From Janthinobacterium sp. GW456P (GTDB lineage: Bacteria; Pseudomonadota; Gammaproteobacteria; Burkholderiales; Burkholderiaceae_D): a stretch of DNA of 64,000 nucleotides. The stretch spans positions 232,101-296,100 of the forward strand of contig NZ_NEHB01000013.1 of the NCBI RefSeq assembly GCF_002127655.1. The letters run 5' to 3'. Below are positions 1,854-59,084 of this stretch, one piece after another (position 1 is the stretch's first letter; each line of letters begins with the position of its first letter). The notes beneath the pieces are model-generated. The model searched no databases. It worked only from the letters and a program-made list of their open reading frames with translations, and was not told the origin of the DNA. A program made the position numbers and the translations under genes.

Positions 1854-1967
1854 GCCTGACCAAACCTACTGCGCGGCGCGCTTTGCGGCCGGCGATGCTC
1901 ACCGTACTCGCGTACGGTTGCGCTTCTCGGCCACAAATCGCTGCCGCTCGCTACGGTTTTGTCAGGC
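1854..1967 (-). repeat. Structured dispersed repeat, copy A (reverse orientation)
   Basis: This 114-bp element lies in the mtlE-mtlF gap. Read on the minus strand it shows the family core: GTAGCGAGCGGC, TTGTGGCCGAGA, an apical hairpin, GAGCATCGC, GGCCGCAAA and GCGCAG. The apical stem is ACCGTAC-GCGA-GTACGGT, whereas the other copies have GCTGTGC-N4-GCACAG[CT]. The ends pair as GCCTGAC/GTCAGGC. As with REP sequences between malE and malF in E. coli, its position could help keep binding-protein mRNA in excess over permease mRNA; that role is inference. Confidence 0.8.
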
Positions 1968-2063
1968 ATCTTTGCTGTGCCGTCTGGTTTGTCAAACAGG
2001 GAATGTGACTGGCCTCGCTATTGCGCGAGTTTAATCACTCACCTCACGCCCCAAGAGAACATT

Positions 2064-2924
2064 ATGAAACGCCTTATCCCCCGGACTTTGCTGACGCCGG
2101 CCGTGCTTGCCGTCTCCGTCATTTCCGTAATCCCGCTGCTGATCACCCTGTATTACGCGTTCGTGCGCTATTCCATGCTCGATCCGAGCGGCCATCCTTT
2201 CCATGGCCTGGCCAATTTCCACTTTTTCTTTACCGATGCCTCGTTCCTGCCGGCCTTGCAGAACACGTTCACCCTGCTGTTTTCCGTCATGCTGGTCACG
2301 GTGGTGCTGGGCACGGCGCTGGGCTTGCTGATCAATGAAGCGTTCCCGGGGCGCGCCGTCGTGCGCGTGCTGCTGATTTCGCCGTTTCTCGTCATGCCGG
2401 CCGTCAATGCCCTGATGTGGAAGAACATGCTGCTCAATCCGATCTACGGCCTGTTCGCGCAAATCAGCCTCTTCTTTGGCGCCACGCCCGTCGACTGGCT
2501 GTCGGCCCATCCGCTGTTTTCCATCATCATGATGGTCTCGTGGCAATGGCTGCCGTTTGCCTGCCTGATCTTCATGACGGCCCTGCAATCGATGGACCGC
2601 GAACAGCTGGAAGCGGCGCGCATGGATGGCGCCACCTATCTGCAGCAACTGCGCTACCTCTACATTCCCCACCTGGGCCGCGCCGTCTCGGTGGTGCTGA
2701 TGATCGAGATGATCTTTTTGCTGTCGATCTTTGCGGAAATCTTTACCACCACGGGCGGCGGTCCCGGCTTCGACACGACCACCATCACCTTCATGATCTA
2801 TCAGCAGGCACTGCTGTCGTATGACGTGGGAGCGGCCTCGGCCGGCGCCCTGTTCGCCGTGCTCATCGCCAACATCGCCGCCTTCTTCCTGATGCGCGTC
2901 ATCGGCAAGAATCTGTCGAAATAA
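2064..2924 (+). CDS. mtlF: Polyol ABC transporter permease (first subunit)
   Basis: The 286-aa inner-membrane permease is of the MalF/SmoF type with about six predicted membrane helices; the first is around residues 12-35. It carries the cytoplasmic EAA-loop signature (LEAARMDGATYLQQLRY) that contacts the ATPase. I chose the ATG at 2064 because the protein then begins MKRLIPRT with a short charged N-terminus; the open frame upstream reads into non-conserved intergenic sequence. The Shine-Dalgarno (AAGAGAA) is modest. It forms the heterodimeric channel with MtlG, whose start lies 10 bp downstream of its stop. Confidence 0.85.
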   Translation: MKRLIPRTLLTPAVLAVSVISVIPLLITLYYAFVRYSMLDPSGHPFHGLANFHFFFTDASFLPALQNTFTLLFSVMLVTVVLGTALGLLINEAFPGRAVVRVLLISPFLVMPAVNALMWKNMLLNPIYGLFAQISLFFGATPVDWLSAHPLFSIIMMVSWQWLPFACLIFMTALQSMDREQLEAARMDGATYLQQLRYLYIPHLGRAVSVVLMIEMIFLLSIFAEIFTTTGGGPGFDTTTITFMIYQQALLSYDVGAASAGALFAVLIANIAAFFLMRVIGKNLSK

Positions 2925-2934
2925 GGAGACCTTG

Positions 2935-3753
2935 ATGCATAGCAAGTTCAATCTGTATGGCCGCACGGCCGCCGCCTGGCTGTGCGCGCTGCTGCTGTTC
3001 TTCCCCATCTTCTGGCTGGGCCTGATGGCCTTCAAGACGGAAGGGCAAGCCATCGCCACGCCGCCGCTGCTGTTCTTCACGCCGACCCTGGACAGCTTCC
3101 GCGAGGTGCTGGCGCGTGACAATTACTTCGGCTACGCGTGGAACTCGCTGTTTACCAGCGCGGTGTCGACGGCCATCGGCCTCTTGATCGCCATCCCGGC
3201 CGCGTATTCGATGGCCTTCTTTCCCACGGGCGGCACCATCGGCTTGCTGAAATTTATGCTCAGCTCGCGCTACATGCCGGGCGTGGGCGCGCTGATGCCC
3301 ATCTATATCTGCTACCAGTATTTCGGCCTGCTCGATACGCGCATCGGCCTGACCATCATGTTCATGCTGATGAATCTGCCCATCATGATCTGGCTGCTGT
3401 ACACGAGCATGAAGGAGCTGCCGCGCGAGATCCTGGAAGCGTCGCGCATGGATGGCGCCACCGTGTGGGACGAATTCCGTCACGTCGTGCTGCCCCTGTC
3501 CGTGGGCGGCATCGCTTCCACGGCCCTCGTGTGCATGGTGTGGTCGTGGAATGAATCGTTCTGGTCGCTGAACCTGGGCGCCTCCAACGCGGGCACCCTG
3601 GCCTGGCTGATCGCCTCGTATTCGAGCCCGGAAGGACTCTTCTGGGCCAAATTGTCGGCCGCTTCCCTGATGGCCATCGCGCCCATCATGGCGCTGGGCT
3701 GGTTCTGCCAAAAACAATTGGTCCAGGGGATGACCTTCGGCGCCGTTAAGTAA
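2935..3753 (+). CDS. mtlG: Polyol ABC transporter permease (second subunit)
   Basis: The 272-aa inner-membrane permease is of the MalG/SmoG type with six predicted helices. It has an EAA-loop (LEASRMDGATVWDEFRHV) near residues 165-185. The ATG at 2935 follows AAGGAGAC at good spacing; a TTG one codon upstream is possible but unnecessary. It pairs with MtlF in the membrane and docks the MtlK ATPase dimer. Its stop is 18 bp before the mtlK start, consistent with one transcript. Confidence 0.86.
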   Translation: MHSKFNLYGRTAAAWLCALLLFFPIFWLGLMAFKTEGQAIATPPLLFFTPTLDSFREVLARDNYFGYAWNSLFTSAVSTAIGLLIAIPAAYSMAFFPTGGTIGLLKFMLSSRYMPGVGALMPIYICYQYFGLLDTRIGLTIMFMLMNLPIMIWLLYTSMKELPREILEASRMDGATVWDEFRHVVLPLSVGGIASTALVCMVWSWNESFWSLNLGASNAGTLAWLIASYSSPEGLFWAKLSAASLMAIAPIMALGWFCQKQLVQGMTFGAVK

Positions 3754-3771
3754 ACACTATTGGATAACATC

Positions 3772-13485: not shown

Positions 13486-13487
13486 AG

Positions 13488-18778: not shown

Positions 18779-18896
18779 ACGTCCGTCCACATCATCGCGA
18801 GCGGCGGCGATGTGTGGCCGAGACGCACAGCTGTGCTGGAGCACAGCGAGCATCGCAGGCCGCACAGGGCGCCGCGCAGCCGATGTGGACGGGCGT
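18779..18896 (+). repeat. Structured dispersed repeat, copy B
   Basis: This 118-bp element lies just 3' of the SDR gene. Its closing stem, ACGTCCGTCCACATC / GATGTGGACGGGCGT, pairs at 14 of 15 positions yet shares no sequence with the closing stems of the other copies. The internal stem is TGTGTGGCC/GGCCGCACA (G-U tolerated) and the apical hairpin GCTGTGC-TGGA-GCACAGC. The conserved core GCGAGCGGC and GAGCATCGCAGGCCGCA is present. Confidence 0.82.
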
Positions 18897-42356: not shown

Positions 42357-42373
42357 CAAATCTCCTTGTGAAA

Positions 42374-42489
42374 TGCCCGACAAAATCGTAGCGAGCGGCA
42401 GTGGATTGCGGTCGAGACGCGCAGCTGTGCGCATGCACAGTGAGCATCGCAGGCCGCAAGGCGCGCCGCGCAGTCAATTTGGTCTGGCA
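42374..42489 (+). repeat. Structured dispersed repeat, copy C
   Basis: This 116-bp element lies between the minus-strand kynA and hydrolase genes. Ends TGCCCGAC/GTCTGGCA pair with one mismatch, and the AAAAT/ATTT extension also pairs. The internal stem is TTGCGGTC/GGCCGCAA (one U-G) and the apical hairpin GCTGTGC-GCAT-GCACAGT. Conserved TAGCGAGCGGCAG and GAGCATCGCAGGCCGCA blocks are present. Confidence 0.84.
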
Positions 42490-42492
42490 TTT

Positions 42493-43368: not shown

Positions 43369-43388
43369 GGTGTTCTCTTGGTCCGGGG

Positions 43389-44956: not shown

Positions 44957-44970
44957 CTAGGTAGACAGGC

Positions 44971-44984: not shown

Positions 44985-44990
44985 GTTGTT

Positions 44991-45012: not shown

Positions 45013-45092
45013 AGGCCAAAAGTCGGGTAAATCCGTCACAGAGCCAACCTCCCACATCCGCGCCGTTGCTGGCGTGCGACCATGATCGAGCA

Positions 45093-45111
45093 GTGTTTGT
45101 CAGACAAACAC
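45093..45111. promoter_or_regulatory. Perfect 19-bp palindrome, candidate operator of flhDC
   Basis: GTGTTTGTC-A-GACAAACAC reads as a perfect 9-1-9 palindrome 135 bp before flhD. It has the form of a dimeric regulator site. No regulator is identified. Confidence 0.6.
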
Positions 45112-45245
45112 CTACGATCCCATCCGCTATTGCCCGACCAAAAATACAGCGCTACGCCTCTGTTGCATTTAATGTTGCTCCTGCAGAATGTATCTCACTG
45201 GCAACACACAACGCCAGCTGAATTCAACGGATTGAGGAGATGGAA

Positions 45246-45563: not shown

Positions 45564-45604
45564 GTATCAGTGAATTAGTATCAGTCCGTAGCGGAGTACA
45601 CAGC

Positions 45605-46165: not shown

Positions 46166-46187
46166 GTCACACATAAGACAGAAAATA

Positions 46188-46224
46188 AGCCGGAGCCGGT
46201 CGCCTGACCGCACTCCGGTTTTTT
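46188..46224 (+). terminator. Terminator after flhDC
   Basis: CCGGAG (46190-46195) pairs with CTCCGG (46213-46218) around an inner hairpin CGGTC-GCCT-GACCG. The composite stem is followed by TTTTTT. Confidence 0.75.
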
Positions 46225-46271
46225 CATGTCGCCATCGCTTACACTGGCGTTTTCCATCTTTGACTACCTCC

Positions 46272-47033
46272 ATGCTGCAACAAATCCTGCGCGCGCCCGC
46301 GCTCAAGGCCATCCTGATCCAGGTGCTGGCCTTTCCCTTGATGTTGCTATTGGTATATTGCCTGGCGCGCGCGGGCGCTGCCATGTCGCTGCCGGCCGTG
46401 GCGCTGGTGCAGGGTGTCCTGGCGGCGCTGATGACCTGGCGCGCGGGCCTGGCCCGCTGGTGGTGTGCCATCGCGCTGCTGTTTGCGCCCGCCTTGCTGG
46501 CGGCCAGCCTGCTCGACTGGCCTCCTGCCGTGTTCCTGGCGGCCTTTGTTTTCCTGCTCAGCCTGTACTGGTCCACGTTCCGCACGCAAGTGCCGTTTTA
46601 TCCGTCGGGGCCGGCCGTGTGGCAGGCGGTGGCCGAACTGATCGCGGACCGTCCCGGCGTGCGCCTGGTGGATATCGGCAGCGGCCTGGGCGGCCTGGTG
46701 CTGGACCTGGAGCGGCGCCGGCCCGACGGGCAGTTTTACGGCATTGAACTGGCGCCGCTGCCCTGGCTGGCAAGCCGCTTGCGCGCGCGGCTGGCGGGCA
46801 GTCGCGCGCGCTTCCTGCGCGGCGATTACGAAGCGCTCGACTTTGGCCGCTACGATGCCGTGTTTGCCTACCTGTCGCCGGCGGCGATGGCAGCCCTGTG
46901 GAATAAGGCGGAAAAGGAAATGTTGCCCGGTAGCATGCTTCTTAGTTACGAATTCCGGATTGCGGCACGCGCGCCTGATAAGACCATCTCCGCCACAGAG
47001 GGTGGTCCTTTGCTTTACATATGGTGCTTTTAA
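46272..47033 (+). CDS. Membrane-anchored class I SAM methyltransferase
   Basis: The 253-aa protein starts MLQQILRAPALKAIL. About four hydrophobic helices fill residues 10-105, then a Rossmann methyltransferase domain with motif I LVDIGSGLGGLVLDL, acidic residue in YGIELAPLPW and YDAVFAYLSPAAM. The substrate is unknown. It stands between flhC and motA; the gap to motA is 218 bp, so it need not be in the motility operon. It resembles the small-molecule or protein methyltransferases near flagellar genes only by position. Confidence 0.72.
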   Translation: MLQQILRAPALKAILIQVLAFPLMLLLVYCLARAGAAMSLPAVALVQGVLAALMTWRAGLARWWCAIALLFAPALLAASLLDWPPAVFLAAFVFLLSLYWSTFRTQVPFYPSGPAVWQAVAELIADRPGVRLVDIGSGLGGLVLDLERRRPDGQFYGIELAPLPWLASRLRARLAGSRARFLRGDYEALDFGRYDAVFAYLSPAAMAALWNKAEKEMLPGSMLLSYEFRIAARAPDKTISATEGGPLLYIWCF

Positions 47034-47251
47034 GCAATTGTCTGCGTTATTTGCTTGCCCGTGGGGCAATCTCACGTTATTGTAGTTCCACACGGCATTT
47101 TCTCGGATTTGCATTGAAAAGCAGCACATTTCAATTAACTTCCGGTTGCTTTTTTGCCGCGGTCTTTGCCGGCGGCGCAGCCGCCAAAAGACAGGAACAG
47201 GTTTGAACATGCCGGGCATACAGCCGCGGCCATTATTGGGAGTCAGGGCAC

Positions 47252-48112
47252 TTGTTAGTCATAATCGGATACATCATCGTCTGCGCCTCGGTCTTTGGCG
47301 GCTTCGCAATGGCCGGCGGCCATCTGGCGGCGCTGTTTCAGCCGCTGGAGTTGCTGATGATCGGCGGCGCCGCCCTGGGCGCCTTCCTTGTTGGTAACAA
47401 TAACAAGGCCATCAAGGCAACGATCGCCGCCTTGCCCAGTCTGTTCAAGGGATCGCGCTATACCAAAGACCTGTACATGGAACTGATGTCGCTGTTGTTT
47501 GAAGTGCTCAGCAAGGTGCGCAAGGAAGGCTTGATGTCGATCGAAGGCGATATCGACAAGCCGGAAGAAAGCCCGCTGTTTTCCAAGTATCCGGCGGTGC
47601 TGGCCGACCACCACATCGTCGAATTCATGACCGATTACCTGCGCCTGATGGTATCGGGCAATATGGATGCGTTCCAGATTGAAAACCTGATGGACAACGA
47701 AATCGAGACGCACCATCACGAAGGCGCCGTGCCGGCCCACGTGATCGCCAAGGTGGGCGACGGCTTGCCCGCGTTCGGTATCGTCGCCGCCGTGATGGGC
47801 GTGGTGCATACGATGGAGTCGGTGGGCATACCGCCGGCCGAGCTGGGCATGCTGATCGCGCACGCGCTGGTCGGCACCTTCCTCGGCATCTTGCTGGCCT
47901 ATGGTTTCGTCGGTCCGCTGGCCAGCCTGCTGGAGCAGAAGCTGGAAGAGTCGAGCAAGATGTTCCAGTGCGTAAAAGTGACGCTGCTGGCCAGCCTGAA
48001 CGGCTATGCGCCGGCGCTGGCCGTGGAATTCGGCCGCAAGGTGCTGTTCTCGACCGAGCGCCCGACGTTCAATGAGCTGGAAGACCACATCAAGAAATCG
48101 AAAACGAAGTAA
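47252..48112 (+). CDS. motA: Flagellar motor stator protein MotA
   Basis: The 286-aa protein has four membrane helices and a cytoplasmic loop. It starts at TTG (LVIIGYIIVCASVFGGFAMAGGHL), with GGGAG upstream; this aligns with the usual MotA N-terminus, and no ATG is available. Family motifs include PLELLMIGGAALGAFLVGNN, VIAKVGDGLPAFGIVAAVMGVVH and FLGILLAYGFVGPLA. With MotB it forms the proton-driven stator. It is first gene of the mot-che operon. Confidence 0.95.
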   Translation: MLVIIGYIIVCASVFGGFAMAGGHLAALFQPLELLMIGGAALGAFLVGNNNKAIKATIAALPSLFKGSRYTKDLYMELMSLLFEVLSKVRKEGLMSIEGDIDKPEESPLFSKYPAVLADHHIVEFMTDYLRLMVSGNMDAFQIENLMDNEIETHHHEGAVPAHVIAKVGDGLPAFGIVAAVMGVVHTMESVGIPPAELGMLIAHALVGTFLGILLAYGFVGPLASLLEQKLEESSKMFQCVKVTLLASLNGYAPALAVEFGRKVLFSTERPTFNELEDHIKKSKTK

Positions 48113-48170
48113 GCAGTGAAACTACGCCTGGACACCATGAGTCATTTGCAGCACACGGAAGGGGGACGCC

Positions 48171-49148
48171 ATGGCCGATGAAGGCATGCGCCCGATTATC
48201 GTCAAACGTATCAAGAAGACGGCTGGCGGGCACCATGGCGGGGCGTGGAAAATCGCCTACGCCGACTTTGTCACGGCCATGATGGCCTTCTTCTTGCTGA
48301 TGTGGCTGCTCGGCTCCACCTCGAAGGGCGACTTGAACGGCATTTCCGAATTCTTCAAGACGCCGTTGAAAGTGGCCATGGCGGGCGGCTCCGGCAGCGG
48401 CGAAAGCAATTCCGTGATCCAGGGCGGCGGCCAGGACCTGTCGCGCCAGGATGGGCAGGTGCGCAAGGCGCAGGAAGAGCAGCAGCGCAAGTCGTTCGAC
48501 CTCAATTCCGCCAAGGCGGCGCTCGAACGCGAGGAAGGCAAGCGCCTGCAGGCGCTCAAGGCGCGCATCGAAGCGACCATCGACGCCAATCCCCTGCTGA
48601 AAAAATACAAGAACCAGTTGCTGCTCGATATTACCAGCGAAGGCTTGCGCATCCAGATCGTTGACGAGCAGAACCGTCCGATGTTTGCGCTCGCCAATGC
48701 GAACCTGCAACCGTACACCAAGGAAATCCTGCACGCCATCGGCTCCGTGCTCAATGAAGTGCCGAACCGCATCGGCCTGTCCGGCCATACGGATTCGACG
48801 CCCTATATGAGCGATGCAGGCTACAGCAACTGGGAATTGTCGGCCGACCGCGCGAATGCGTCGCGGCGCGAACTGGTGATCGGCGGCATGAAGGAAGAAA
48901 AAGTCTTGCGCGTGGTGGGACTGGGTTCGGCCGCCCACCTGGACAAGCTCGATCCCTTCAATCCGATCAACCGGCGCATCAGCATCATCGTCATGAACAA
49001 GCGCACGGAGGAAAATGTCCTGCGCGATGGTTCGGCGATCGAGCTGCCGGTGACCGATGCCGCTTCCGCCGCTGTCGCTTCAGGGCTGGCTGCCGGTGCG
49101 CCGCCCGCAGCGGTGCCAGTTACTGGTCCGGCAGCGGCGAAAAAATAA
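48171..49148 (+). CDS. motB: Flagellar motor stator protein MotB
   Basis: The 325-aa protein has a single membrane helix at about residues 28-48 containing the proton-carrying aspartate (D32 in YADFVTAMMAFFLLMWLLG). A linker and plug follow, then a C-terminal OmpA-like peptidoglycan-binding domain (RIGLSGHTDSTPY, NWELSADRANASRREL, FNPINRRISIIV). The Ala/Pro-rich tail is variable. Start after GGAAGGGGG. It lies 58 bp after motA. Confidence 0.95.
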   Translation: MADEGMRPIIVKRIKKTAGGHHGGAWKIAYADFVTAMMAFFLLMWLLGSTSKGDLNGISEFFKTPLKVAMAGGSGSGESNSVIQGGGQDLSRQDGQVRKAQEEQQRKSFDLNSAKAALEREEGKRLQALKARIEATIDANPLLKKYKNQLLLDITSEGLRIQIVDEQNRPMFALANANLQPYTKEILHAIGSVLNEVPNRIGLSGHTDSTPYMSDAGYSNWELSADRANASRRELVIGGMKEEKVLRVVGLGSAAHLDKLDPFNPINRRISIIVMNKRTEENVLRDGSAIELPVTDAASAAVASGLAAGAPPAAVPVTGPAAAKK

Positions 49149-49194
49149 CACGCAAGGCTGTCGACGCGTGGTGTATTGAAACAATGAGACCTTT

Positions 49195-49743
49195 ATGACA
49201 AGAAAGAAAATACTTGGCTCGCATGTAAAACGCCTGCTGTCTGGCGTGTCGGACCATGGCCGCAAGCACTTGACGGAGGTGGAAACCGACCTGGTGCAGA
49301 CCGGCATCTTGCTGGAAGAGGCGATCGAGAAGCTGTCCTTCAATTTCATGGCGATACACGCAGCCGTCGCTGCGCAGCAAGACACTATCGCGCTGCTGCT
49401 CGACGGCGGTATTCCGGCCGAGCAGCAGCGCGAAAAACTGCTGGCGTTGCAGGATGAGGTGGGGGGCTATGTGAATGCCGCCATCACCAGCCTGCAGTTC
49501 CAGGACATGACCAGCCAGCTGATCGAGCGCACCTTGAAGCGCGTGACGGGCTTGCGCGAGTTCCTCGGGACCCTGGGCGAGCATGGCGCGGAGATGTTGC
49601 CGGAGAGCGACAATGAAGAAATTGTCGCCTTGCTGGGTCGGGTCAGCATGGCGCTGGCGATTCAAAGCCTGGAGTTGCGCAGCGTGCTGCGCAAGGCTGT
49701 CAGTCAACAGCATTTGGAAAGCGGCGACATCGAGCTGTTCTAG
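49195..49743 (+). CDS. Divergent CheZ-like CheY-P phosphatase (putative)
   Basis: The 182-aa, all-helical protein lies between motB and cheY. Its SLQFQDMTSQLIERTLKRV segment (about residues 99-117) matches the CheZ active-site helix (FQDLTGQ), placing D104 and Q108 at the same four-residue spacing as CheZ D143/Q147. The C-terminus ESGDIELF is a short acidic-hydrophobic tail after a helix, as expected for a CheY-binding peptide. It is shorter than enteric CheZ (about 214 aa). No other CheZ is present in the operon. Function as phosphatase is inferred from the motif and position. Confidence 0.6.
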   Translation: MTRKKILGSHVKRLLSGVSDHGRKHLTEVETDLVQTGILLEEAIEKLSFNFMAIHAAVAAQQDTIALLLDGGIPAEQQREKLLALQDEVGGYVNAAITSLQFQDMTSQLIERTLKRVTGLREFLGTLGEHGAEMLPESDNEEIVALLGRVSMALAIQSLELRSVLRKAVSQQHLESGDIELF

Positions 49744-49826
49744 CATGCCAGTGCGGAGCGCTTGTGGTTGCATGGATTGATTAATCAAATACTCGGGCAG
49801 GATGCCCGGAATAAGTGGGAGCAAAG

Positions 49827-50192
49827 ATGGCCAAAACGATACTTGCAGTGGACGATTCCAGCTCATTGCGCCAGATGGTGGCGTTCAGCCTGAAAGCCGC
49901 CGGTTACCAGGTGGTGGAGGCCGTGGACGGCCAGGACGGACTGGAAAAAGCCAAGCTGCAAACCGTAGACCTGGTATTGACGGACCAGAACATGCCGCGC
50001 ATGGATGGCCTGGAACTGATCAAGCTGCTGCGTGAACTGCCGACCTACCAAAAGGTGCCCATCCTGATGCTGACGACGGAGTCGTCGGACGAGATGAAAT
50101 CGAAAGGCCGTGCCGCCGGCGCCAATGGCTGGCTGGTCAAGCCGTTCGATCCGCAACGCCTGATCGAAGTGGTCAAGAAGGTGATCGGCTGA
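49827..50192 (+). CDS. cheY: CheY-type single-domain response regulator, copy 1
   Basis: The 121-aa receiver domain has the acidic pair VDDSS, phospho-acceptor D53 in LVLTDQNMPRMDG, switch Thr in LMLTTES and the lysine in WLVKPFD. Start after GTGGGAG. It sits directly before cheA, a position often taken by the CheY that docks to this CheA. A second CheY ends the operon; which one controls the motor is not decided by sequence. Confidence 0.9.
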   Translation: MAKTILAVDDSSSLRQMVAFSLKAAGYQVVEAVDGQDGLEKAKLQTVDLVLTDQNMPRMDGLELIKLLRELPTYQKVPILMLTTESSDEMKSKGRAAGANGWLVKPFDPQRLIEVVKKVIG

Positions 50193-50235
50193 TGCCAGCC
50201 GCGCAGCGCAATGATGCAATTGACGGAGTCACCCT

Positions 50236-52437
50236 ATGACCATCGATATTAGCCAGTTTTTTCAGGTCTTTTTCGATGAGGCCGAAGAACTGCTGGCTGA
50301 AAAAGAACGGCTGCTGCTGGCCGTTGATATTGCGGCGCCCGACGCCGAAGATCTGAATGCCATTTTCCGCACCGCCCATTCGATCAAGGGCGGCGCATCG
50401 ACGTTCGGCCTTTCCGACATGAGCGAGGTGACGCACATCCTCGAGTCGCTGCTCGACCGCATCCGTCAGGGCCAGATGGCCCTGACGGCAGAACACGTCG
50501 ACGCCTTTTTGGCGGCCAAGGACATCCTCAAGATGCAGCTCGACGGCCATCGCCTGGGCAGCGCTGTCGACCAGGATGCCGTGGCCAATGTGCGCATGAT
50601 GCTGCAGTCGTTCTCGCAGGACGTGCCCGTGGCCGCGCTCACGCCCGTCGCTCCGGCCTTCCATACGGCGGAAAAGGCCGCCGTCAGCCATGCCGGCGGC
50701 CACCGCATCCGCCTGGAACTGCCGGCCATGGAGCCGCGCGAAGTCGATGCGCTGGCGGCCGAACTGGGCTTGCTGGGCGACGTCGCCGTAACGAGCCTGC
50801 CCGACGCGCGCAAGGTGCTGGAAGTGACGACGCATGAAAGCCTGGACGACATCCTGGCCATCTGCTCGTTCGTGCTCAATCCTGACGATATGGTGATCAC
50901 GCAGGCGCCGCCGCTGGCGCCAGGCGAGGCCGAAGCGGCCCGCGCGGCGCAGGAAAAGGCACAAGGCTACGGTTTCTTCGACCCGCTGCCAGGCGCTCCT
51001 GGCGCGCAGGGCGCGGCCGATCCCGGTTACGGCTTCTTCCAGCCGATCGAGGATATCCGCGCCGCCGCCGGCGTGCAGAGCGACGCCGAACAGGGTTACG
51101 GATTCTTCCAGCCCCTCGAACAGATTCGCGCGGACGCCGCCAAGGCGGGCAACGCCAGCGCTGCCGCCGCGCCGGCCGTGGCGAGCGCCGTGGCCGAAGC
51201 GGAGCAGGAAAAGAAACCGGCCAAGAAAGAGGGCGACAAGGCCGGCGCCGAATCGTCGTCGATCCGCGTCTCGATCGAGAAAGTCGACCAGCTGATCAAC
51301 CTGGTGGGCGAACTGGTGATCACGCAGGCGATGATTGAACAGCGCGCCAGCGCGCTCGATCCGATGCTGCATGAAAAGCTGCTCGACAGCGTCAGCCACC
51401 TGACGCGCAACACGCGCGACTTGCAGGAAGCGGTGATGTCGATCCGCATGATGCCGATGGATTTCGTTTTCTCGCGCTTCCCGCGCATGGTGCGCGACCT
51501 GGCGACGAAACTGGGCAAGAAGGTCGACTTCATCACCAATGGCGCCGCCACGGAACTGGACAAGGGCCTCATCGAGCGCATCGTCGATCCGCTCACGCAC
51601 CTGGTGCGCAACAGTATCGACCATGGCGTGGAAATGCCGGCCGCCCGCGTGGCCGCCGGCAAGACCGAGGCGGGACGCTTGTTCCTCTCGGCCAGCCACC
51701 AGGGCGGCAACATCATTATCGAAGTATCCGATGACGGCGCCGGCTTGAACCGCGAGCGCATCCTGGCCAAGGCCGCGCAGCAGGGGCTGGACGTGTCCGA
51801 GTCGATGAGCGACGCCGAGGTGTGGCAGCTGATATTCGCGCCCGGCTTTTCCACCGCCGAAGCGGTCACCGACGTATCGGGCCGCGGCGTGGGCATGGAT
51901 GTCGTCAAGCGCAATATCAGCGCCATGGGCGGCGTCGTCGACATCCGTTCGGCCAAGGGGTTCGGCACGACGATTTCCATTTCGCTGCCGCTGACCCTGG
52001 CCATCCTGGACGGCATGTCGATCCGCGTCGGCGACGAAGTGTATATTTTGCCGCTGGGCTTTGTCATCGAATCGCTGCAGCCGGCCGTTGAGGACATCAA
52101 GGACATCAGTGGCAAGGGCCAGGTGGTGAAAGTGCGCGGCGAATACCTGCCCTTGATTCCGTTGTACCAGATGTTCGACATCGCGCCGCGCTTTACCAGT
52201 CCCTCGGAAGGCATCTGCGTGATCCTTGAGACGGAAGGGCGCAAGGCGGCCCTGTTTGTCGACGACCTGGTGGGGCAGCAGCAGGTCGTGGTGAAAAACC
52301 TCGAATCGAATTACCGCAAGGTGGTGGGCATTTCCGGCGCCACCATCCTGGGCGATGGCGGCGTGTCGCTGATTCTCGATGTCGCCGCCCTGATCCGTTC
52401 CTCTCGCCAGCTGGCCGACGAGTCCATTTTTTCGTAA
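50236..52437 (+). CDS. cheA: Chemotaxis histidine kinase CheA
   Basis: The 733-aa kinase has a P1 Hpt domain with phosphorylated H48 (FRTAHSIKGGASTFG). A second domain lies at about 155-225 (HRIRLELPAMEPREVDALAAEL). A linker at about 240-300 has three GYGFF repeats at 244, 264 and 287. The P3 dimerisation helices begin at SIRVSIEKVDQLINLVGELVITQ. The P4 ATPase has HLVRNSIDHGVE, VSDDGAGLNRERI and VSGRGVGMDVVK. P5, the CheW-like domain, ends the protein. The MTIDISQFF start is 43 bp after cheY. Confidence 0.95.
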   Translation: MTIDISQFFQVFFDEAEELLAEKERLLLAVDIAAPDAEDLNAIFRTAHSIKGGASTFGLSDMSEVTHILESLLDRIRQGQMALTAEHVDAFLAAKDILKMQLDGHRLGSAVDQDAVANVRMMLQSFSQDVPVAALTPVAPAFHTAEKAAVSHAGGHRIRLELPAMEPREVDALAAELGLLGDVAVTSLPDARKVLEVTTHESLDDILAICSFVLNPDDMVITQAPPLAPGEAEAARAAQEKAQGYGFFDPLPGAPGAQGAADPGYGFFQPIEDIRAAAGVQSDAEQGYGFFQPLEQIRADAAKAGNASAAAAPAVASAVAEAEQEKKPAKKEGDKAGAESSSIRVSIEKVDQLINLVGELVITQAMIEQRASALDPMLHEKLLDSVSHLTRNTRDLQEAVMSIRMMPMDFVFSRFPRMVRDLATKLGKKVDFITNGAATELDKGLIERIVDPLTHLVRNSIDHGVEMPAARVAAGKTEAGRLFLSASHQGGNIIIEVSDDGAGLNRERILAKAAQQGLDVSESMSDAEVWQLIFAPGFSTAEAVTDVSGRGVGMDVVKRNISAMGGVVDIRSAKGFGTTISISLPLTLAILDGMSIRVGDEVYILPLGFVIESLQPAVEDIKDISGKGQVVKVRGEYLPLIPLYQMFDIAPRFTSPSEGICVILETEGRKAALFVDDLVGQQQVVVKNLESNYRKVVGISGATILGDGGVSLILDVAALIRSSRQLADESIFS

Positions 52438-52467
52438 TACCGATAGATAAAGATAGGAAAACGCACC

Positions 52468-52974
52468 ATGTCAGATACTCAACAAACATCCGGAAGCAAT
52501 GCGGGCGACGGCAAGGACATCGCCGGCCGTGAATTCCTGGCCTTCACCCTGGGCTCCGAAGAGTACGGCATCGATATCCTGAAGGTCCAGGAGATCCGTG
52601 GTTACGAAGCGGTCACCCGCATCGCCAACGCGCCTGAATTCATCAAGGGCGTGATCAACCTGCGCGGCATCATCATCCCGGTGGTCGACATGCGCATCAA
52701 GTTCAACCTGGGCACGCCCGTGTACGACCAGTTCACGGTGGTGATCATCCTGAACATCGGCGGCCGTATCGTCGGCATGGTGGTCGACAGCGTTTCCGAC
52801 GTCACCACCCTGACGCCGGAGCAGGTCAAGCCGGCGCCGGAAATGGGCACAGCCTTCTCGACCGACTACATGATCGGCCTGGGCACCATCGACGAGCGCA
52901 TGCTGATCCTGGTCGACATCGACAAGCTGATGTCGAGCAGCGAGATGGGCCTGATCGACAAGCTGGCGGCTTAA
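52468..52974 (+). CDS. cheW: Chemotaxis coupling protein CheW
   Basis: The 168-aa CheW domain shows [42 protein letters not shown] and [11 protein letters not shown]. It bridges CheA and receptors. It has a short 20-residue hydrophilic N-terminal extension. It follows cheA by 30 bp and is followed by a terminator-like hairpin before the receptor gene. Confidence 0.95.
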
Positions 52975-52984
52975 GCGGCAGCAA

Positions 52985-53010
52985 GGCGGCGCCCGGTGCG
53001 CCGCCGTTTT
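52985..53010 (+). terminator. Terminator-like hairpin between cheW and mcp
   Basis: GGCGGCGC (52985-52992), CCGGT, GCGCCGCC (52998-53005), then GTTTT. A second stem, ACGGCGCC (53110-53117)/GGCGCCGT (53131-53138), lies before the mcp ribosome-binding site. The 187-bp gap may attenuate read-through, lowering expression of mcp-cheRDB relative to cheAW. Confidence 0.6.
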
Positions 53011-53161
53011 AGAACGCAAAGAATCACTACAGATATGCATGTACCGGCGCGGGCATCAGCCTGAGGCGCGCCGGCAGGCTGCAAGGTCCGACAGAGACCC
53101 GGCCACAACACGGCGCCGTACGGTTGAACGGGCGCCGTTCACATAAATATTGGAGACTGTA

Positions 53162-54883
53162 ATGAGTTTGCGCGATTTCAAGATAGGCACCCGGCTGGGG
53201 ATAGGTTTTGGCAGCATCCTCGCCATCCTGGTGGTGGTGATCGTTTCGGCGAATGCACTGAATTACCGTAACAAGGCCCAGCTGCTCACGGGGCTGGAGC
53301 TGGCAAGCGAAAAGAATACGCAGGCGTCGCTGATGAAAAGCGCGATGCTGGAAACCGGTATCGCCATGCGCAATATCGGCCTGCAGGGCGATGTGAGCCT
53401 GATGCAGGCGGAAGAGGGCAAGGTGCGCGAGCAGCGCAAGCTGTACGACGGCGCCCGCGGCAAGCTGGCCACCTTGGGCCTGTCCGATGGCGAGAAGGCG
53501 CTGCTGGCCAATATCGCCAAGGTCGACGGCGAAGTCGATGCCGCCTTCAAGGAAGCGATGGGACAGGTGCTGGCGTTTAACAGCGAGGGTGCGGCGAAGG
53601 TGATCGCCACCCGCATCGATCCCTTGAACAAGACGACCCTGGCCGATATCAACAAGCTGCTCGACTTGCAGCACGTGGCGCAGCAAAGCTTCATGGACGA
53701 CTCGCTGGCGGCCGATGCGCGCCTGATGATGGTACTGTTCATCCTGGGCGGCGCGGCCGTGGCGATCGGCGCCTGGTGCGCCATCTTCATCACGCGCTCG
53801 ATCACGGTGCCATTGTCCGGCGCAGTGGCCGTGGCGCAGAAGGTGGCGGCCGGCGAGCTGACCTCGCGCGTGGTGGTCGAAGGCAAGGATGAAACGAGCG
53901 CGCTGCAGCAGGCGCTCAAGGACATGAACGAGAGCCTGGTGCAGACGGTCAGCGACGTGCGCACCGGGACGGACACCATCACCGTGGCGTCGCGCGAGAT
54001 CGCCAGCGGCAATGCGGACCTGTCGGCGCGCACGGAAACGCAGGCCAGTTCGCTCGAAGAGACGGCGTCGTCGATGGAAGAGCTGACGTCGACCGTGAAG
54101 CAGAACGCGGACAACGCGCGCCAGGCCAACCAGCTGGCAGTGTCGGCGTCGTCGGTGGCGGAGCAGGGCGGCAAGGTCGTGTCGCAAGTGGTCGATACCA
54201 TGGGTTCCATCAAGGACAGTTCGCGCAAGATCGTCGACATCATCGGCGTCATCGACGGCATTGCGTTCCAGACGAATATCCTGGCATTGAATGCGGCCGT
54301 CGAAGCGGCGCGCGCAGGTGAGCAGGGACGCGGTTTTGCGGTGGTGGCGTCGGAAGTGCGCAATCTGGCGCAACGATCGGCCGGCGCGGCGAAGGAAATC
54401 AAGGGCTTGATCGGCGACTCGGTCGACAAGGTCGATGCCGGCAGCCGCCTGGTGGACGAGGCGGGGCAGACCATGGGCCTGATCGTTACGTCGATCCGGC
54501 AGGTGGCCGACATCATGGGCGAGATCACGGCGGCGACGCAGGAACAGAGCCACGGCATCGAGGAAGTGAACCAGGCCATCGCGCAGATGGACCAGATGAC
54601 GCAGCAAAATGCGGCGCTGGTCGAGGAAGCGGCGGCGGCCGCCGAAAGCATGCAGGAGCAGGCGCAGAAACTGGCCGCCGCCGTCAGCATCTTCAAGCTG
54701 GACGGCGAGAGCGCGGCGCAGGCAGTCATGCCCGCGTCCGCGTCCGTAGTCAAGGCGGCGGCACGGCCGGCACCGAGTGTGGCGGGAACTGCACGGCGGG
54801 TGGCAACGGCGGCGCAGGCCGTCACGCCAGCGCCCGCGAAAAAGCTGGCGGCGGCCGGCGGCGACGATTGGGAAGAGTTCTGA
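53162..54883 (+). CDS. Methyl-accepting chemotaxis protein with CheR/CheB tether
   Basis: The 573-aa receptor begins with a membrane helix at about 12-32. A periplasmic four-helix-bundle sensor (about 35-190) and a second helix (about 192-215) follow, then HAMP (VAQKVAAGELTSRV) and the signalling hairpin with GIAFQTNILALNAAVEAARAGEQ. An Ala-rich flexible arm ends in DWEEF, matching the xWxxF pentapeptide that tethers CheR and CheB in enteric receptors. The ATG at 53162 has TTGGAG upstream. The ligand is unknown. Confidence 0.92.
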   Translation: MSLRDFKIGTRLGIGFGSILAILVVVIVSANALNYRNKAQLLTGLELASEKNTQASLMKSAMLETGIAMRNIGLQGDVSLMQAEEGKVREQRKLYDGARGKLATLGLSDGEKALLANIAKVDGEVDAAFKEAMGQVLAFNSEGAAKVIATRIDPLNKTTLADINKLLDLQHVAQQSFMDDSLAADARLMMVLFILGGAAVAIGAWCAIFITRSITVPLSGAVAVAQKVAAGELTSRVVVEGKDETSALQQALKDMNESLVQTVSDVRTGTDTITVASREIASGNADLSARTETQASSLEETASSMEELTSTVKQNADNARQANQLAVSASSVAEQGGKVVSQVVDTMGSIKDSSRKIVDIIGVIDGIAFQTNILALNAAVEAARAGEQGRGFAVVASEVRNLAQRSAGAAKEIKGLIGDSVDKVDAGSRLVDEAGQTMGLIVTSIRQVADIMGEITAATQEQSHGIEEVNQAIAQMDQMTQQNAALVEEAAAAAESMQEQAQKLAAAVSIFKLDGESAAQAVMPASASVVKAAARPAPSVAGTARRVATAAQAVTPAPAKKLAAAGGDDWEEF

Positions 54884-54954
54884 CGCCAACCCGGTCCCGC
54901 TAGTTATACTTGCAAAGGCATTGGTCAGAGTTGTCATAGAGAGGTAAAAACAAA

Positions 54955-55827
54955 ATGCCGCAAACTAAAACGGATTCGGTCAAGGAATTTGATTTCACTG
55001 GCAAGGACTTCGAACGGGTCCGCGCCATGATTTACAAGCGGGCCGGCATCGCGCTGGCCGACAGCAAGCAGGAGATGGTCTACAGCCGCCTGGCCAGGCG
55101 CCTGCGCGCGACCGGCATCTCCTCGTTCGTCCGCTATCTGGACGACCTGGAAGCGGGCCGCATGGGCGACGAGTGGGAAGCCTTCACGAATGCGCTGACG
55201 ACCAACCTGACGTCGTTCTTCCGCGAGGCGCATCACTTCCCGCTGCTGGCCGAGCATGTGAAAAAACTGAGTGGGCCGATCACCATCTGGTGTTCGGCCA
55301 GTTCCACCGGCGAAGAGCCGTATTCGATCGCCATGACGGTGTGCGAGGCGTTCAATACGCTCACGCCGCCGGTCACCATCATCGCCACGGACATCGACAC
55401 GAACGTGCTGGCCACGGCCGCCAACGGCGTCTACAACCTGGACCGGCTCGACAAGATGCCGGCCGACCGTGCGCGGCGCTTTTTCTTGCGCGGCAAGGGC
55501 GACCGCGAGGGGCAGGTGCGGGTGCGCCCGGAACTGCGCCAGATGATCACCTTCAAGCCGCTCAACCTGCTGGCCGACAGCTGGCCGGTGACGGGGCAGT
55601 TCGACGTCATCTTTTGCCGCAACGTGATGATTTATTTTGACAAGGCGACGCAGCGCAAGATCCTGTCGCGCTTTGTGCCGTTGATGAAGCCCGATGCCCT
55701 GCTGTTCGCAGGCCATTCGGAGAATTTTCTGTACGTGTCGGATTCATTGAAGCTGCGCGGTAAAACAGTCTATGAGCTCGATCAGCCCCGGGGCAGCGCA
55801 CCCAAGGCATCGTCGCAGCGTACATGA
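54955..55827 (+). CDS. cheR: Chemotaxis protein methyltransferase CheR
   Basis: The 290-aa enzyme methylates receptor glutamates with SAM. The N-terminal helical domain has FERVRAMIYKRAGIAL. The catalytic domain has TNLTSFFREAHHFPLL, the SAM loop CSASSTGEEPYSIAM, ATDIDTNVLATA and FDVIFCRNVMIYFD. The beta-subdomain that binds receptor pentapeptides should be present, consistent with DWEEF on the neighbouring receptor. Spacing to cheD is 9 bp. Confidence 0.95.
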   Translation: MPQTKTDSVKEFDFTGKDFERVRAMIYKRAGIALADSKQEMVYSRLARRLRATGISSFVRYLDDLEAGRMGDEWEAFTNALTTNLTSFFREAHHFPLLAEHVKKLSGPITIWCSASSTGEEPYSIAMTVCEAFNTLTPPVTIIATDIDTNVLATAANGVYNLDRLDKMPADRARRFFLRGKGDREGQVRVRPELRQMITFKPLNLLADSWPVTGQFDVIFCRNVMIYFDKATQRKILSRFVPLMKPDALLFAGHSENFLYVSDSLKLRGKTVYELDQPRGSAPKASSQRT

Positions 55828-55836
55828 GAGTGAAAT

Positions 55837-56445
55837 ATGAGCCTGGAATCCAAAGAGCAATTCGCCACTAACGTCTATTACGACAGGACGTTCAATTGTG
55901 ACGCCGCCAAGATCTTGCCTGGTGAGTATTACTTCACCAACAAGGACATGCTGATCGTCACCGTGCTCGGCTCCTGCGTCTCGGCCTGCATCCGCGACCG
56001 CGTCACGGGCCTGGGCGGCATGAACCACTTCATGCTGCCCGATGGCGGCAGCGATCCGAACAGCCCGATTTCCGCGTCGATGCGCTATGGCACCTACGCC
56101 ATGGAAATCCTGATCAACGATTTGCTGAAGGCGGGCGCGCGGCGCGAGAACATGGAAGCGAAAGTGTTCGGCGGCGGCGCCGTACTGCGCGGCTTCACGG
56201 CGATCAACGTCGGTGAACGCAACGCGGCTTTCGTCATCAATTATCTGAAGGCGGAAAAGATGCGCGTGGTGGCGGAAGACCTCAACGACATCCACCCGCG
56301 CAAGGTGTATTTTTTCCCCCGCAGCGGCAAGGTGCTGGTGAAAAAGCTGATGCAGACGCATAACGACACGCTGGTGCGCCGCGAACTCGATTACGCCAGC
56401 CGCTTGAAAGTCGCGCCAGTCGGCGGCGAAGTCGAGTTGTTTTAA
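55837..56445 (+). CDS. cheD: Chemoreceptor glutamine deamidase CheD
   Basis: The 202-aa protein has catalytic cysteine and histidine in [25 protein letters not shown] and the substrate-side segment KVFGGGAVL. It deamidates receptor glutamines before methylation. It ends GGEVELF, a tail similar to that of the CheZ-like protein of this operon (SGDIELF). Downstream lies a structured repeat before cheB. Confidence 0.93.
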
Positions 56446-56468
56446 TAGCGTGAGATATAGATAACAAT

Positions 56469-56582
56469 ACCTGATCACACCGTAGCGAGCGGATGGGAGT
56501 TGTGGTCGAGACGCGCAGCTGTGCTTTAGCACAGTGAGCATCGGAGGCCGCAAATCGCGACGCGCAGTAGGTGGGACCAGGT
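56469..56582 (+). repeat. Structured dispersed repeat, copy D
   Basis: This 114-bp element in the cheD-cheB gap is in the same direction as transcription. Ends ACCTGATC/GACCAGGT pair with one mismatch; CACC/GGTG extends the stem. The internal stem TTGTGGTC/GGCCGCAA uses two U-G pairs, and the apical hairpin is GCTGTGC-TTTA-GCACAGT. The core is GTAGCGAGCGG, GAGCATCGGAGGCCGCA, GCGCAGTAGG. Confidence 0.84.
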
Positions 56583-56616
56583 GCTTTAATGGGCCGGTAG
56601 GCCCAAAGGAAAATAT

Positions 56617-57687
56617 ATGAAGATCAAAGTATTGATCGTGGACGATTCGGCCTTGATCCGCAGCGTCATGACGGAAATCGTAAACAGCCAGCCCGACATG
56701 GAAGTGGTGGGCGCGGCGCCCGATCCGCTGGTGGCGCGCGAGATGATCAAGCAGACCAACCCCGACGTGCTGACCCTCGATGTCGAGATGCCGAAGATGG
56801 ACGGTCTGGACTTCCTGGAAAAGCTGATGCGCCTGCGCCCGATGCCGGTGCTGATGGTGTCGTCGCTGACCGAGCGCGGTTCGGAAATCACCATGCGCGC
56901 GCTGGAACTGGGCGCCGTCGATTTCGTCACCAAGCCGAAGATTTCCATCCAGAGCGGCATGCGCGAGTACACGGACATGATCGCCGACAAGATCCGCGCC
57001 GCCTCGAAGGCGCGTATCCGCGCGCGCACTCTGCCGGCGGCCGGCGACAAGGTGGCCGCACCGCTGCCTGCGCTGCGCAGCCCATTGACGTCGAGCGAAA
57101 AGCTGATCATCGTGGGCGCCTCGACCGGCGGCACGGAAGCGATCCGCGAATTTCTCATGCAGATGCCGTCCGATTGTCCCGGCATCCTGATCACGCAGCA
57201 CATGCCGGAAGGCTTTACGCGTTCGTTCGCGCGCCGCCTCGATTCGCTGTGCAAGATCTCGGTGCAGGAAGCGGCAGGCGGCGAACGCGTGCTGCCCGGC
57301 CATGCCTATATCGCGCCCGGCCATTCGCACCTGACACTGACGCGCAGCGGCGCCAACTACATGACCAAGATTGACCAGGGCGAACCGGTGAACCGCCACC
57401 GCCCGTCGGTCGACGTGCTGTTCCGTTCGGCCGCGCAATCGGCCGGTAAAAATGCCGTCGGCGTGATCCTCACCGGCATGGGCAAGGACGGCGCACAAGG
57501 CATGTTGGAGATGAAGGCCGCAGGAGCGTATAATTTTGCGCAGGACGAAGCCAGTTGCGTGGTGTTTGGCATGCCGCGCGAGGCGATCGCTGTCGGCGCT
57601 ACGCATGAGGTCGGTGCTCTGACGGCGCTGCCTGGCATGGTGCTGGGACACCTGGCGGCGCATGGCATGCGTGCTTTGCGCGTGTAA
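56617..57687 (+). CDS. cheB: Chemotaxis response regulator methylesterase CheB
   Basis: The 356-aa protein has a REC domain ([14 protein letters not shown]; phospho-acceptor D55 in [15 protein letters not shown]), a linker, and the methylesterase domain with catalytic serine in [11 protein letters not shown], histidine in TQHMPEGFT and aspartate in [10 protein letters not shown]. It removes receptor methyl groups when phosphorylated by CheA. It starts 171 bp after cheD, the gap holding repeat D. Confidence 0.96.
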
Positions 57688-57834
57688 GCCACGTTTTATA
57701 TGATCCGAGGCAAGTTTGTTCGCCTAAAAGCAACGAAAATGCTATCCTACAACTTGCTGCCGTAGTGTCGACCATAATGTCGGCATTCATGTCGATATTA
57801 TTAACAAACCGCTACAGAAACAACGGAGTTATTC

Positions 57835-58233
57835 ATGGCTGATCCAAAGATGAAATTTTTAGTCGTTGACGATTTTTCGACGATGCGCCGCATTGTCCGG
57901 AATCTGTTGAAGGAACTGGGTTATGCCAACGTCGATGAGGCGGAAGACGGCGTGATGGGCCTGGCCAAGCTGCGCGCGGAATCGTTCGATTTCGTCGTGT
58001 CGGACTGGAACATGCCCAATATGGATGGCCTGACGATGCTGCAGCATATCCGCGCCGATCCCGCACTGGCCAAGCTGCCCGTGCTGATGGTCACCGCCGA
58101 AGCGAAGAAGGAAAACATCATCGCCGCCGCGCAAGCTGGCGCCAGCGGTTATGTCGTCAAGCCGTTCACGGCAGCGACCCTCGATGAAAAGCTGAACAAG
58201 ATTTTCGAGAAGCTGGAAAAAGCCGGCGCCTGA
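57835..58233 (+). CDS. cheY: CheY response regulator, copy 2
   Basis: The 132-aa protein resembles enteric CheY more closely than copy 1: [24 protein letters not shown]57 in [25 protein letters not shown] and [15 protein letters not shown]. It is likely the motor-binding CheY. In many beta-proteobacteria cheZ and flhBAF follow directly; here a terminator and a lipoprotein gene follow instead. Confidence 0.93.
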
Positions 58234-58240
58234 CCACGGC

Positions 58241-58254
58241 TTGATACCGATCAA
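58241..58254. promoter_or_regulatory. Second FNR/Anr-type palindrome
   Basis: TTGATACCGATCAA, matching TTGAT-N4-ATCAA exactly, lies 8 bp after the cheY stop and 216 bp before the lipoprotein start. It abuts the terminator, so it may be structural rather than regulatory. Confidence 0.4.
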
Positions 58255-58255
58255 G

Positions 58256-58290
58256 AAAAACGCTGCCCGTGCAAACCGGCGGCGTTTTTT
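58256..58290 (+). terminator. Intrinsic terminator of the mot-che operon
   Basis: AAAAACGCTGCC (58256-58267) pairs with GGCGGCGTTTTT (58278-58289), with one T-G, around a 10-nt loop, and the stem ends in a T-run. Confidence 0.85.
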
Positions 58291-58470
58291 TCGTCGGCTT
58301 GCGCCTTGCTTACAGCAAGCTCATCCCACGTGTCCCCCCCCCCTGACCGGATAAAATTGCGCAATGGAATGAAATATTTCCCATAGTTAACTTTACACGT
58401 CAAATGATTTGGCCCATGATCGCTGCAGTATTCCCCCTTTGTCCCCGACCCCGACAAGAAGGAGCGCACG

Positions 58471-58923
58471 ATGCGCCGAGCACCCGTATTATTTTTTGCC
58501 CTGAGCACGGCTCTGTTGGCGGCCTGTGGCGTGAGCCTTGAGCAAACCGCCGTTGCGCCTGTCGCGTCCGTCGAGATGCAGGAGCCGCCCGCGCAGTCGC
58601 CTGCCGAAGGCGACGGCCGGCACGCCTATCTGCACCGTGTGGGCGGCCAGGATTATGTCAGCCTGAGCCAGCACGGCTCCGAGGGCGGCTTGCCGATCCT
58701 CACGGGCACGCAGCGCCATGCGCGCGCCATCCGCCTGCTGGCGGCCGATCCGGCCCAGGTCAGGGCCATCCTGCGCAGCCTGAGGCTGCCTGCGAACCAG
58801 CGCAAGCTGTGGGCGGGCGAGGAAATCGTGCTCGACGCGGCAAGCTATGACCTGTTGCAAGCGGCACGCGGCAATAACAAGCCGCTGTTTGCCGAGCTCA
58901 AGCTGGTAGGGATGGAAAAGTAA
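58471..58923 (+). CDS. Small lipoprotein of unknown function
   Basis: The 150-aa protein starts with MRRAPVLFFALSTALLAAC, with lipobox LLAAC at residues 15-19. A Pro/Ala spacer follows, then a soluble domain of about 100 aa (RAIRLLAADPAQVRAILRSLRLPANQRKLW). GGAG lies 8 bp upstream. It sits alone between the che terminator and panC, at the position usually taken by cheZ/flhB. Upstream there is a run of ten C residues (58334-58343). Confidence 0.7.
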   Translation: MRRAPVLFFALSTALLAACGVSLEQTAVAPVASVEMQEPPAQSPAEGDGRHAYLHRVGGQDYVSLSQHGSEGGLPILTGTQRHARAIRLLAADPAQVRAILRSLRLPANQRKLWAGEEIVLDAASYDLLQAARGNNKPLFAELKLVGMEK

Positions 58924-58932
58924 GGCAAGAAA

Positions 58933-58950
58933 CGGGGCCGAATGGCCCCG
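58933..58950 (+). terminator. Short hairpin after the lipoprotein gene
   Basis: CGGGGCC-GAAT-GGCCCCG forms a 7-bp perfect stem 10 bp after the stop codon. There is no strong T-run, so this is at best a weak terminator. Confidence 0.45.
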
Positions 58951-58968
58951 CTGTGACTGCGTTTAAGG

Positions 58969-59084
58969 CATCTAACAACACCGTAGCGAGCGGCAGGGGG
59001 TTGTGGCCGAGAAGCGGAGCTGTGCTTTAGCACAGTGCGCATCGCAGGCCGCAAATCGCGACGCGCAGCAGGTTTTGTCGTATG
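58969..59084 (+). repeat. Structured dispersed repeat, copy E
   Basis: This 116-bp element lies between the lipoprotein and panC genes (convergent) and abuts the panC stop. The apical hairpin is GCTGTGC-TTTA-GCACAGT and the internal stem TTGTGGCC/GGCCGCAA. Its ends, CATCTAACAACACC versus CATACGACAAAACC (reverse complement of the right end), pair imperfectly. Confidence 0.82.

Follow-up and report, generated by a model that had tools for sequence, protein, structure and literature searches.

Five short stretches in a 64,000-nt piece of the genome of Janthinobacterium sp. GW456P (contig NZ_NEHB01000013.1; this whole piece is called the window below) fold into the same long, interrupted hairpin, and the question is what kind of element this hairpin represents and how it is placed among the genes. 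A preliminary description of this DNA had proposed a dispersed intergenic element with covarying stems in the Oxalobacteraceae. This was borne out in a Janthinobacterium host, with the covariation now computed; the five copies (A to E) lie exactly where they had been placed and align end to end, and the observation is real and larger than first described. We conclude that the element is probably a strand-specific, non-autonomous mobile hairpin that is recognised as single-stranded DNA in trans.

Fixed loops and freely varying stems

The element is about 116 nt long and is built of three stacked helices, P1, P2 and P3, which are separated by conserved internal loops. From the base upwards, the outer stem P1 (about 16 pairs) is followed by loop 1 (GTAGCGAGC against GCGCAGTAG), the middle stem P2, loop 2 (GAGAAGCGCAG against GAGCATCGCAG) and the apical stem P3, which is mostly capped by a four-base loop; a short left tail with the consensus TNAC is perhaps also present. 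When copies from 20 genomes were compared, the loop motifs were nearly invariant and a third conserved spot, GAG/AAAT, was found within P2; P1 and most of P2 had little sequence in common. The tetranucleotide GTAG, nearly invariant as well, is unpaired in loop 1 between P1 and P2. When the variable base was compared between both halves of loop 2, a weak association was observed (Fisher p 0.03, 98 of 145 copies parsed).

The RNAalifold consensus of the five window copies has 45 pairs, 12 of them with at least one two-sided change. When 25 genomes were represented by one copy each, 95.3% of the cells paired, compared to 69.8% after shuffling; two-sided changes occurred in 35 of the 45 pairs, and the covariation score was 0.701 against 0.191 for shuffled and at most 0.133 for slid alignments. 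P1 was paired in 94.0% of its cells. An alignment of 71 rows, two of them echo rows (see below), gave 94.0% pairing, two-sided changes in 39 of the 45 pairs and a score of 0.585. Both larger alignments were fitted to the covariance model and lean towards structure for this reason; the raw sequences show the pairing too. As described earlier, the apical stem reads ACCGTAC/GTACGGT in copy A and GCTGTGC/GCACAGY in B to E, and the internal change from TTT/AAA to TGT/ACA is present in copy B. The closing stem had been called unrelated in sequence among the copies, which applies to B only, whereas A, C, D and E have a common CCTGACAAAACC-like arm.

R1, a covariance model built from the five window copies, was run against the whole genome (G000, 6.27 Mb in 78 contigs) and returned at least 129 rows at E up to 0.01, opposite-strand echoes included; of the 2923 candidates, 150 were scored. 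The window together with 80 further regions of the genome gave 101 matches at E up to 1e-7, which correspond to 94 distinct copies and 7 opposite-strand echoes. These 94 copies are a lower bound; outside this set, the whole-genome run contained a few more, among them a tandem unit at C1:187481 (contig and position), the match C7:91056 and, at C5:42233, a relic. When up to two mismatches were allowed, a 16-nt sequence core was matched 98 times and the reversed control pattern 15 times. The predicted dispersal was found; hundreds of intergenic copies had been predicted, and at least 94 were counted.

R1 matched 37 of 40 genomes of the genus and, within the family, 234 of 392 genomes and 31 of 44 genera. 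With the model R2, matches were obtained in 67 of 300 genomes and 37 of 135 genera of the order, a count that is swollen because some matches of about 156 nt belong to a longer relative. In the family and order searches, scoring covered 8 and 11 candidates per genome, respectively, and the copy numbers there are lower bounds. The longer relative (loci L383, L384 and L385, matches of 150-158 nt) was seen in other families of the order and has the same loop 1 and a different upper part.

No Rfam 15 family was found on the element at gathering scores in the whole window, and no match at E up to 1 was obtained for window positions 56300-59300 or for the copies of 14 loci. Identity with a catalogued RNA family had been named beforehand as refuting the proposal; no copy examined had an Rfam match. 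Copy D had no match in plasmid and phage records at E 1e-5, and no earlier description of the element was found in the literature searched (open-access papers only); its motif strings occur in 18 papers, of which the 10 listed deal with other matters. Dispersed bacterial palindromes are usually recognised through conserved sequence, and Rfam has no family for this one. Families whose stems retain little sequence, and in which pairing and loop motifs are kept across an order, are easily missed by similarity searches.

Several variants of the plan were observed. A divergent subtype with a GAGTARC/GAGYAAC-like loop 2 made up 8 of the 94 copies by a simple pattern (for example loci L099, L103, L104 and L105) and was also present in a relative (L115:17967-18102). 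A GC-rich insert of about 14 nt was found in 15 of the 94 copies, behind P3 in 11 and, roughly as its reverse complement, inside P2 in 5; L106 carries both, and the two could pair together. Tandem arrays were located at L375:1225-1702, L376:1905-2165 and G000:C1:187481-187752 (L040), with some units lacking the outer stem.

Placement behind stop codons and turnover between species

The preliminary description had held that the orientation of the element relative to genes is not fixed. This was wrong: at A, B, C and E a gene on the opposite strand has its stop codon 0-7 nt from the right end, and copy D, with no antisense stop at its right end, is the exception in the window. Genes were called with a program trained on the DNA examined, which misses some of them, for example one beside copy C. 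Throughout the genome, the right-hand neighbour is on the opposite strand in 76 of the 94 copies, and 63 of these 76 genes have their stop at -12 to +9 bp from the element end. When the distance was counted from the last base of GCGCAG[TC], an antisense stop started within a 7-nt window at the right end (+16 to +22) in 58 of the 94 copies, with a peak at +19 (24 copies), and 67 of the 94 had one at +5 to +26. The mirrored rule at the left end was met in 2 of 89 copies. For random intergenic insertion on contig C5 the right-hand rule is expected in 0.67%, which is a low estimate because the gene caller misses genes.

The stops beside the copies were TAA in 33, TAG in 20 and TGA in 14 cases, compared to 190 TAA, 145 TGA and 62 TAG among all called genes, so that TAG is over-represented beside the copies of this genome (20 of 67 against 62 of 397). 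The antisense stop was present at +15 to +22 in 12 of 30 copies from other genera; in two of these cases the open reading frame is shorter than 40 codons. Among 19 copies from other families of the order, 7 had it at +18 to +20, two of which (L375 and L376) look like one site. It is conceivable that the unpaired GTAG base-pairs with the reverse complement of the stop. This idea is weakened because TGA prevails among the seven other-family copies (5 of 7), despite the TAG excess in this genome.

A strong hairpin directly behind stop codons might also be an intrinsic transcription terminator of the adjoining gene. No T-run consensus was found beyond the ends (88 left and 82 right ends), and none of the 26 terminator-like sites at window positions 42000-60000 lies on C, D or E (A and B were not scanned), so that we regard a terminator as extremely unlikely.

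The copies were also compared between species. At site E the element is present in the window genome, L119, G012 and G004 and absent from L114, L115, L117 and L118, of which L118 is identical at every base as far as the insertion point. At site C, 5 of 30 orthologous loci, our own included, carry the element; elsewhere the two genes are mostly joined by a few bases, and three loci have a different left neighbour. At site A, a full copy is present in 4 of 30 orthologous loci (again with our own) and a right-end relic in 4, and none was seen in 22. Site D is occupied in G012 and G004 by a truncated relic in the opposite orientation. B and E are common to the window genome, G012 and G004, and A and C are not; G012 and G004 gave further empty sites for their own copies and have other copies in common. 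On contig C5, 8 of 13 copies were uninformative, with no matching flanks in the stretches compared from these two genomes. The cheY protein by the element is 99% identical in seven Janthinobacterium records, and the flanking DNA is 92-96% identical in most of them.

This presence/absence polymorphism points to a mobile DNA element. The stop codon is present at sites A, C and E also where these are empty, and it was thus not supplied by the element there. The relics resemble deletions between short repeats at the base of the hairpin (L116). In relatives, another repeated hairpin, GGGGTCNGACCC...GGGTCNGACCCC, was seen in the same intergenic spaces (the A-site orthologs L224, L227 and L230, and L120); none is present in the window.

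Table 1. Copies of the element in the window, parts of copy C and loci with a GC-rich insert. Right and left refer to the element as drawn.
Feature	Position	Strand	Remark
Copy A	1854..1967	-	Full-length alignment with the other four copies; right end 7 nt from the stop of a solute-binding-protein gene (467-1846, +); gene beyond: ABC permease, 1959 onward
Copy B	18779..18896	+	P1 sequence unrelated to the other copies, still paired; right end 5 nt from the stop of a short-chain dehydrogenase gene (18902-19699, -)
Copy C	42374..42489	+	Full-length alignment with the other four copies; right end 3 nt from the stop (42493-42495) of a tryptophan 2,3-dioxygenase gene (42493-43866, -)
Copy D	56469..56582	+	Flanked by cheD (ends 56445, +) and cheB (starts 56617, +)
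Copy E	58969..59084	+	Full-length alignment with the other four copies; right end abuts the stop (59085-59087) of a pantoate ligase gene (59085-59924, -)
Copy C, P1 left arm	42370..42387	+	Free sequence, paired
Copy C, loop 1, 5' strand	42388..42396	+	GTAGCGAGC
Copy C, P2 left arm	42397..42413	+	
Copy C, loop 2, 5' strand	42414..42424	+	GAGACGCGCAG (consensus GAGAAGCGCAG)
Copy C, P3 and tetraloop	42425..42440	+	
Copy C, loop 2, 3' strand	42442..42452	+	GAGCATCGCAG
Copy C, P2 right arm	42453..42467	+	
Copy C, loop 1, 3' strand	42468..42474	+	GCGCAGT; anchor for the stop-codon distance
Copy C, P1 right arm	42475..42491	+	Antisense stop begins one base further
Insert behind P3	L083, L089, L068:6384, L073:5379, L085:2458, L095, L100, L101, L102, L069:6833, L106		
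Insert inside P2	L097, L058:12142, L052:6096, L106, L107		

The folded strand and its possible mobiliser

Wobble pairs were counted with omission of the columns that have wobble in over a quarter of their cells. The 94 copies of our genome contained 131 G·T against 59 A·C cells on the drawn strand, and G·T exceeded A·C in 53 copies and fell below it in 11. An A·C on the drawn strand is a G·U on the other, and therefore it is the folding of the drawn strand that matters. The bias in this genome is not due to structure-based finding because 86 of the 94 copies contain the sequence core. In 30 copies from other genera the counts were 59 and 11; these copies were found with the model, so that G·T may be favoured there. 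U-G pairs had earlier been described as occurring only in the drawn orientation, of which the bias stood and the strict rule did not. The selection on RNA of that strand which it had been taken to suggest is the less favoured reading here (see below).

The strand bias bears on the view that the element is a neutral miniature inverted-repeat transposable element (MITE), with the complementarity of its arms coming from self-correction of the hairpin by template switching in replication. The element is indeed dispersed, polymorphic and palindromic, and its relics resemble slippage across a hairpin. Template switching, however, has no strand preference, yet the wobble pairs are biased, and it should erase fixed loop mismatches, yet the loops are the most conserved part. 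We therefore think this origin very unlikely.

A further alternative is a structured RNA of the drawn strand. It would be a 3'-untranslated hairpin of the left gene or an antisense transcript across the stop of the right gene, and the pairing would be maintained because this RNA serves as a protein-binding site or protects against decay. Stems that covary around fixed internal loops classically indicate such an RNA, and RNA of the drawn strand would give the wobble bias equally well. The left-hand gene would read into the drawn strand in 44 of the 94 copies, but it points away in 50, and the right-hand gene, on the opposite strand in 76, transcribes the opposite of the strand favoured by the wobble pairs where it abuts the element. 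Promoter-like sites at window positions 42000-60000 numbered 7, against 4.5 +/- 2.0 in shuffles, and the copies are gained and lost between species.

The apical loops were examined as well. Four bases cap P3 in 115 of 138 copies parsed, and these 115 tetraloops comprise 66 TNNA, 28 GNAB, 4 GNRA and 1 UNCG, so that loops of the RNA type (GNRA or UNCG) account for only 5. Loops of the GNAB and GNNA types closed by C-G are known as tetraloops that are stable in DNA, where T..A loops contain a Hoogsteen pair (both points unconfirmed in the literature searched). Taken together, DNA is favoured over RNA as the folded molecule, and we hold the structured-RNA explanation to be somewhat unlikely. The element may nevertheless also act as RNA, and DNA and RNA roles are compatible.

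Fixed loops, free stems, one favoured strand and placement beside stop codons suggest that the folded strand is read by a protein in trans. The full reading, to which we give an even chance, is that of a family of non-autonomous mobile palindromic DNA elements, the drawn strand of which is recognised as single-stranded DNA in trans and inserted beside stop codons. The protein would recognise the folded strand via the loops, and insertion next to stop codons would set position and orientation in this one step. Thereafter the copies would be inherited vertically, with the pairing kept by compensatory change, and could be lost through deletion between short repeats across the hairpin. As mobiliser an HUH protein (Y1/RAYT-like; RAYT, REP-associated tyrosine transposase, REP being a repetitive extragenic palindrome) is the favoured candidate, because proteins of this class recognise strand-specific hairpins that carry a GTAG tag and a bulge.

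Three RAYT-like (Y1_Tnp) genes are present in this genome. They match the NCBIfam model of the REP-associated tyrosine transposase with 35.6-65.2 bits, below the 80-bit cut-off. Y1_Tnp genes were found in 40 of 40 genomes of the genus. One of the proteins, a 235-residue Y1/HUH protein (L113:4669-5376, +; G000:C6:55668-56372) with a weak match to that model, was detected in 385 of the 392 family genomes (one to five matches per genome among the rows listed). It is apparently a domesticated transposase, and as mobiliser of the element it is only a candidate. Another of the RAYT-like proteins has 311 residues (L111:3875-4810). In the flanks of L113 one perfect hairpin was listed, with a single exact copy in the DNA examined, and the flanks of L111 had none among those listed.

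These genes, together with the unpaired and nearly invariant GTAG, would also fit a true GTAG-type REP/REPIN system of a RAYT-like transposase, only longer than usual. Known REPs likewise lie near gene 3' ends and often supply the stop codon (PMC3733652). The GTAG of our element is internal and not terminal, about 116 nt stand against the 20-40 bp given for REPs (PMC3733652), and none of the three sub-threshold RAYT-like genes adjoins a copy. We judge such a system to be distinctly unlikely.

Several points weigh against a hairpin that is mobilised as single-stranded DNA. The linked transposase that the preliminary description had suggested looking for was not found beside the element in this genome: around the three RAYT-like genes there is no copy within 1.5 kb at E up to 1 or within about 4 kb at E up to 1e-7. 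Co-occurrence, which was tried as evidence, is uninformative because the RAYT-like protein is present with or without elements, and one genome (G346) has 21 element matches and no RAYT-like protein at 1e-20. The exact left-end pattern has 66 matches in this genome, all but one (C17:26975) inside R1 matches; with the left ends inside recognised copies, a larger element sharing this left end was not observed here. A consistent target-site duplication, as would mark a DDE-type MITE, was not observed in 85 copies, and clean junctions were few, so that the transposition chemistry is not fixed. The best 4-mer offset among direct repeats occurred 6 times, against 1.4 expected, and lies inside the stems, inverted matches numbered 33 against 8.2, and only site E allows a reading as TTAA or TA duplication. 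In other genera the placement follows the rule less closely: 18 of 30 copies have no right-hand antisense stop at +15 to +22 and L295, L297 and L298 have their left end directly behind a sense stop. Placement alone is also not unique, because known GTAG REPs crowd gene ends. Loop-energy tables did not separate DNA from RNA (mean percentiles 0.60 and 0.63).

A bolder version, which we rate as unlikely, is that of an order-wide, stop-codon-addressed mobile DNA, in which a domesticated, near-universal HUH protein would place the hairpin about one base behind stops in antisense orientation. If true, stop codons would be safe harbours for such DNA. The near-universal RAYT-like gene, beside which no REP was found in this genome, is a protein seeking a substrate. 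One-sided placement would also make it testable whether palindromes come to lie at gene ends through selection or through aimed insertion.

Comparison with known systems

In integron attC sites and IS200/IS605 ends, one strand of an imperfect palindrome is active, and attC sites also follow stop codons. Our element is likewise a strand-specific imperfect palindrome; PMC8266576 names both among the folded single-strand recombination sites. Unlike attC, our element has no GTTRRRY (R box) consensus at its ends (the ends only were examined) and appears without an adjoining gene in the empty-site comparisons.

The enterobacterial RU elements, of which RU-1 is ERIC, are conserved in sequence. They resemble our element in being intergenic, MITE-like, small and of similar length, with 127, 168 and 103 bp for RU-1, RU-2 and RU-3 (PMC2759123). 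The stems described here differ in being conserved in pairing only, and the host group is different.

With the REP/BIME/REPIN families the element shares dispersed intergenic palindromes near gene 3' ends, an unpaired GTAG and strand-specific folding. These families, tagged by GTAG or CGTC, have tens to thousands of copies (PMC3733652, PMC8266576). REPs are described as short hairpins with GTAG unpaired at one end, crowding gene ends and lying less than 20 bp from gene 3' ends for convergent pairs in two species (PMC3733652); the E. coli TnpA_REP works on a single strand and depends on the GTAG together with a bulge (PMC8266576). In contrast, our element has its GTAG inside an internal loop, several conserved loops and stems that are free in sequence, one of its ends lies beside an antisense stop that empty sites have as well, and its copies have no adjoining RAYT gene in this genome. 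In conclusion, what is new is the length, the multi-loop plan, the stems that are free of sequence across the order and the antisense relation, on one side only, to a pre-existing stop codon.

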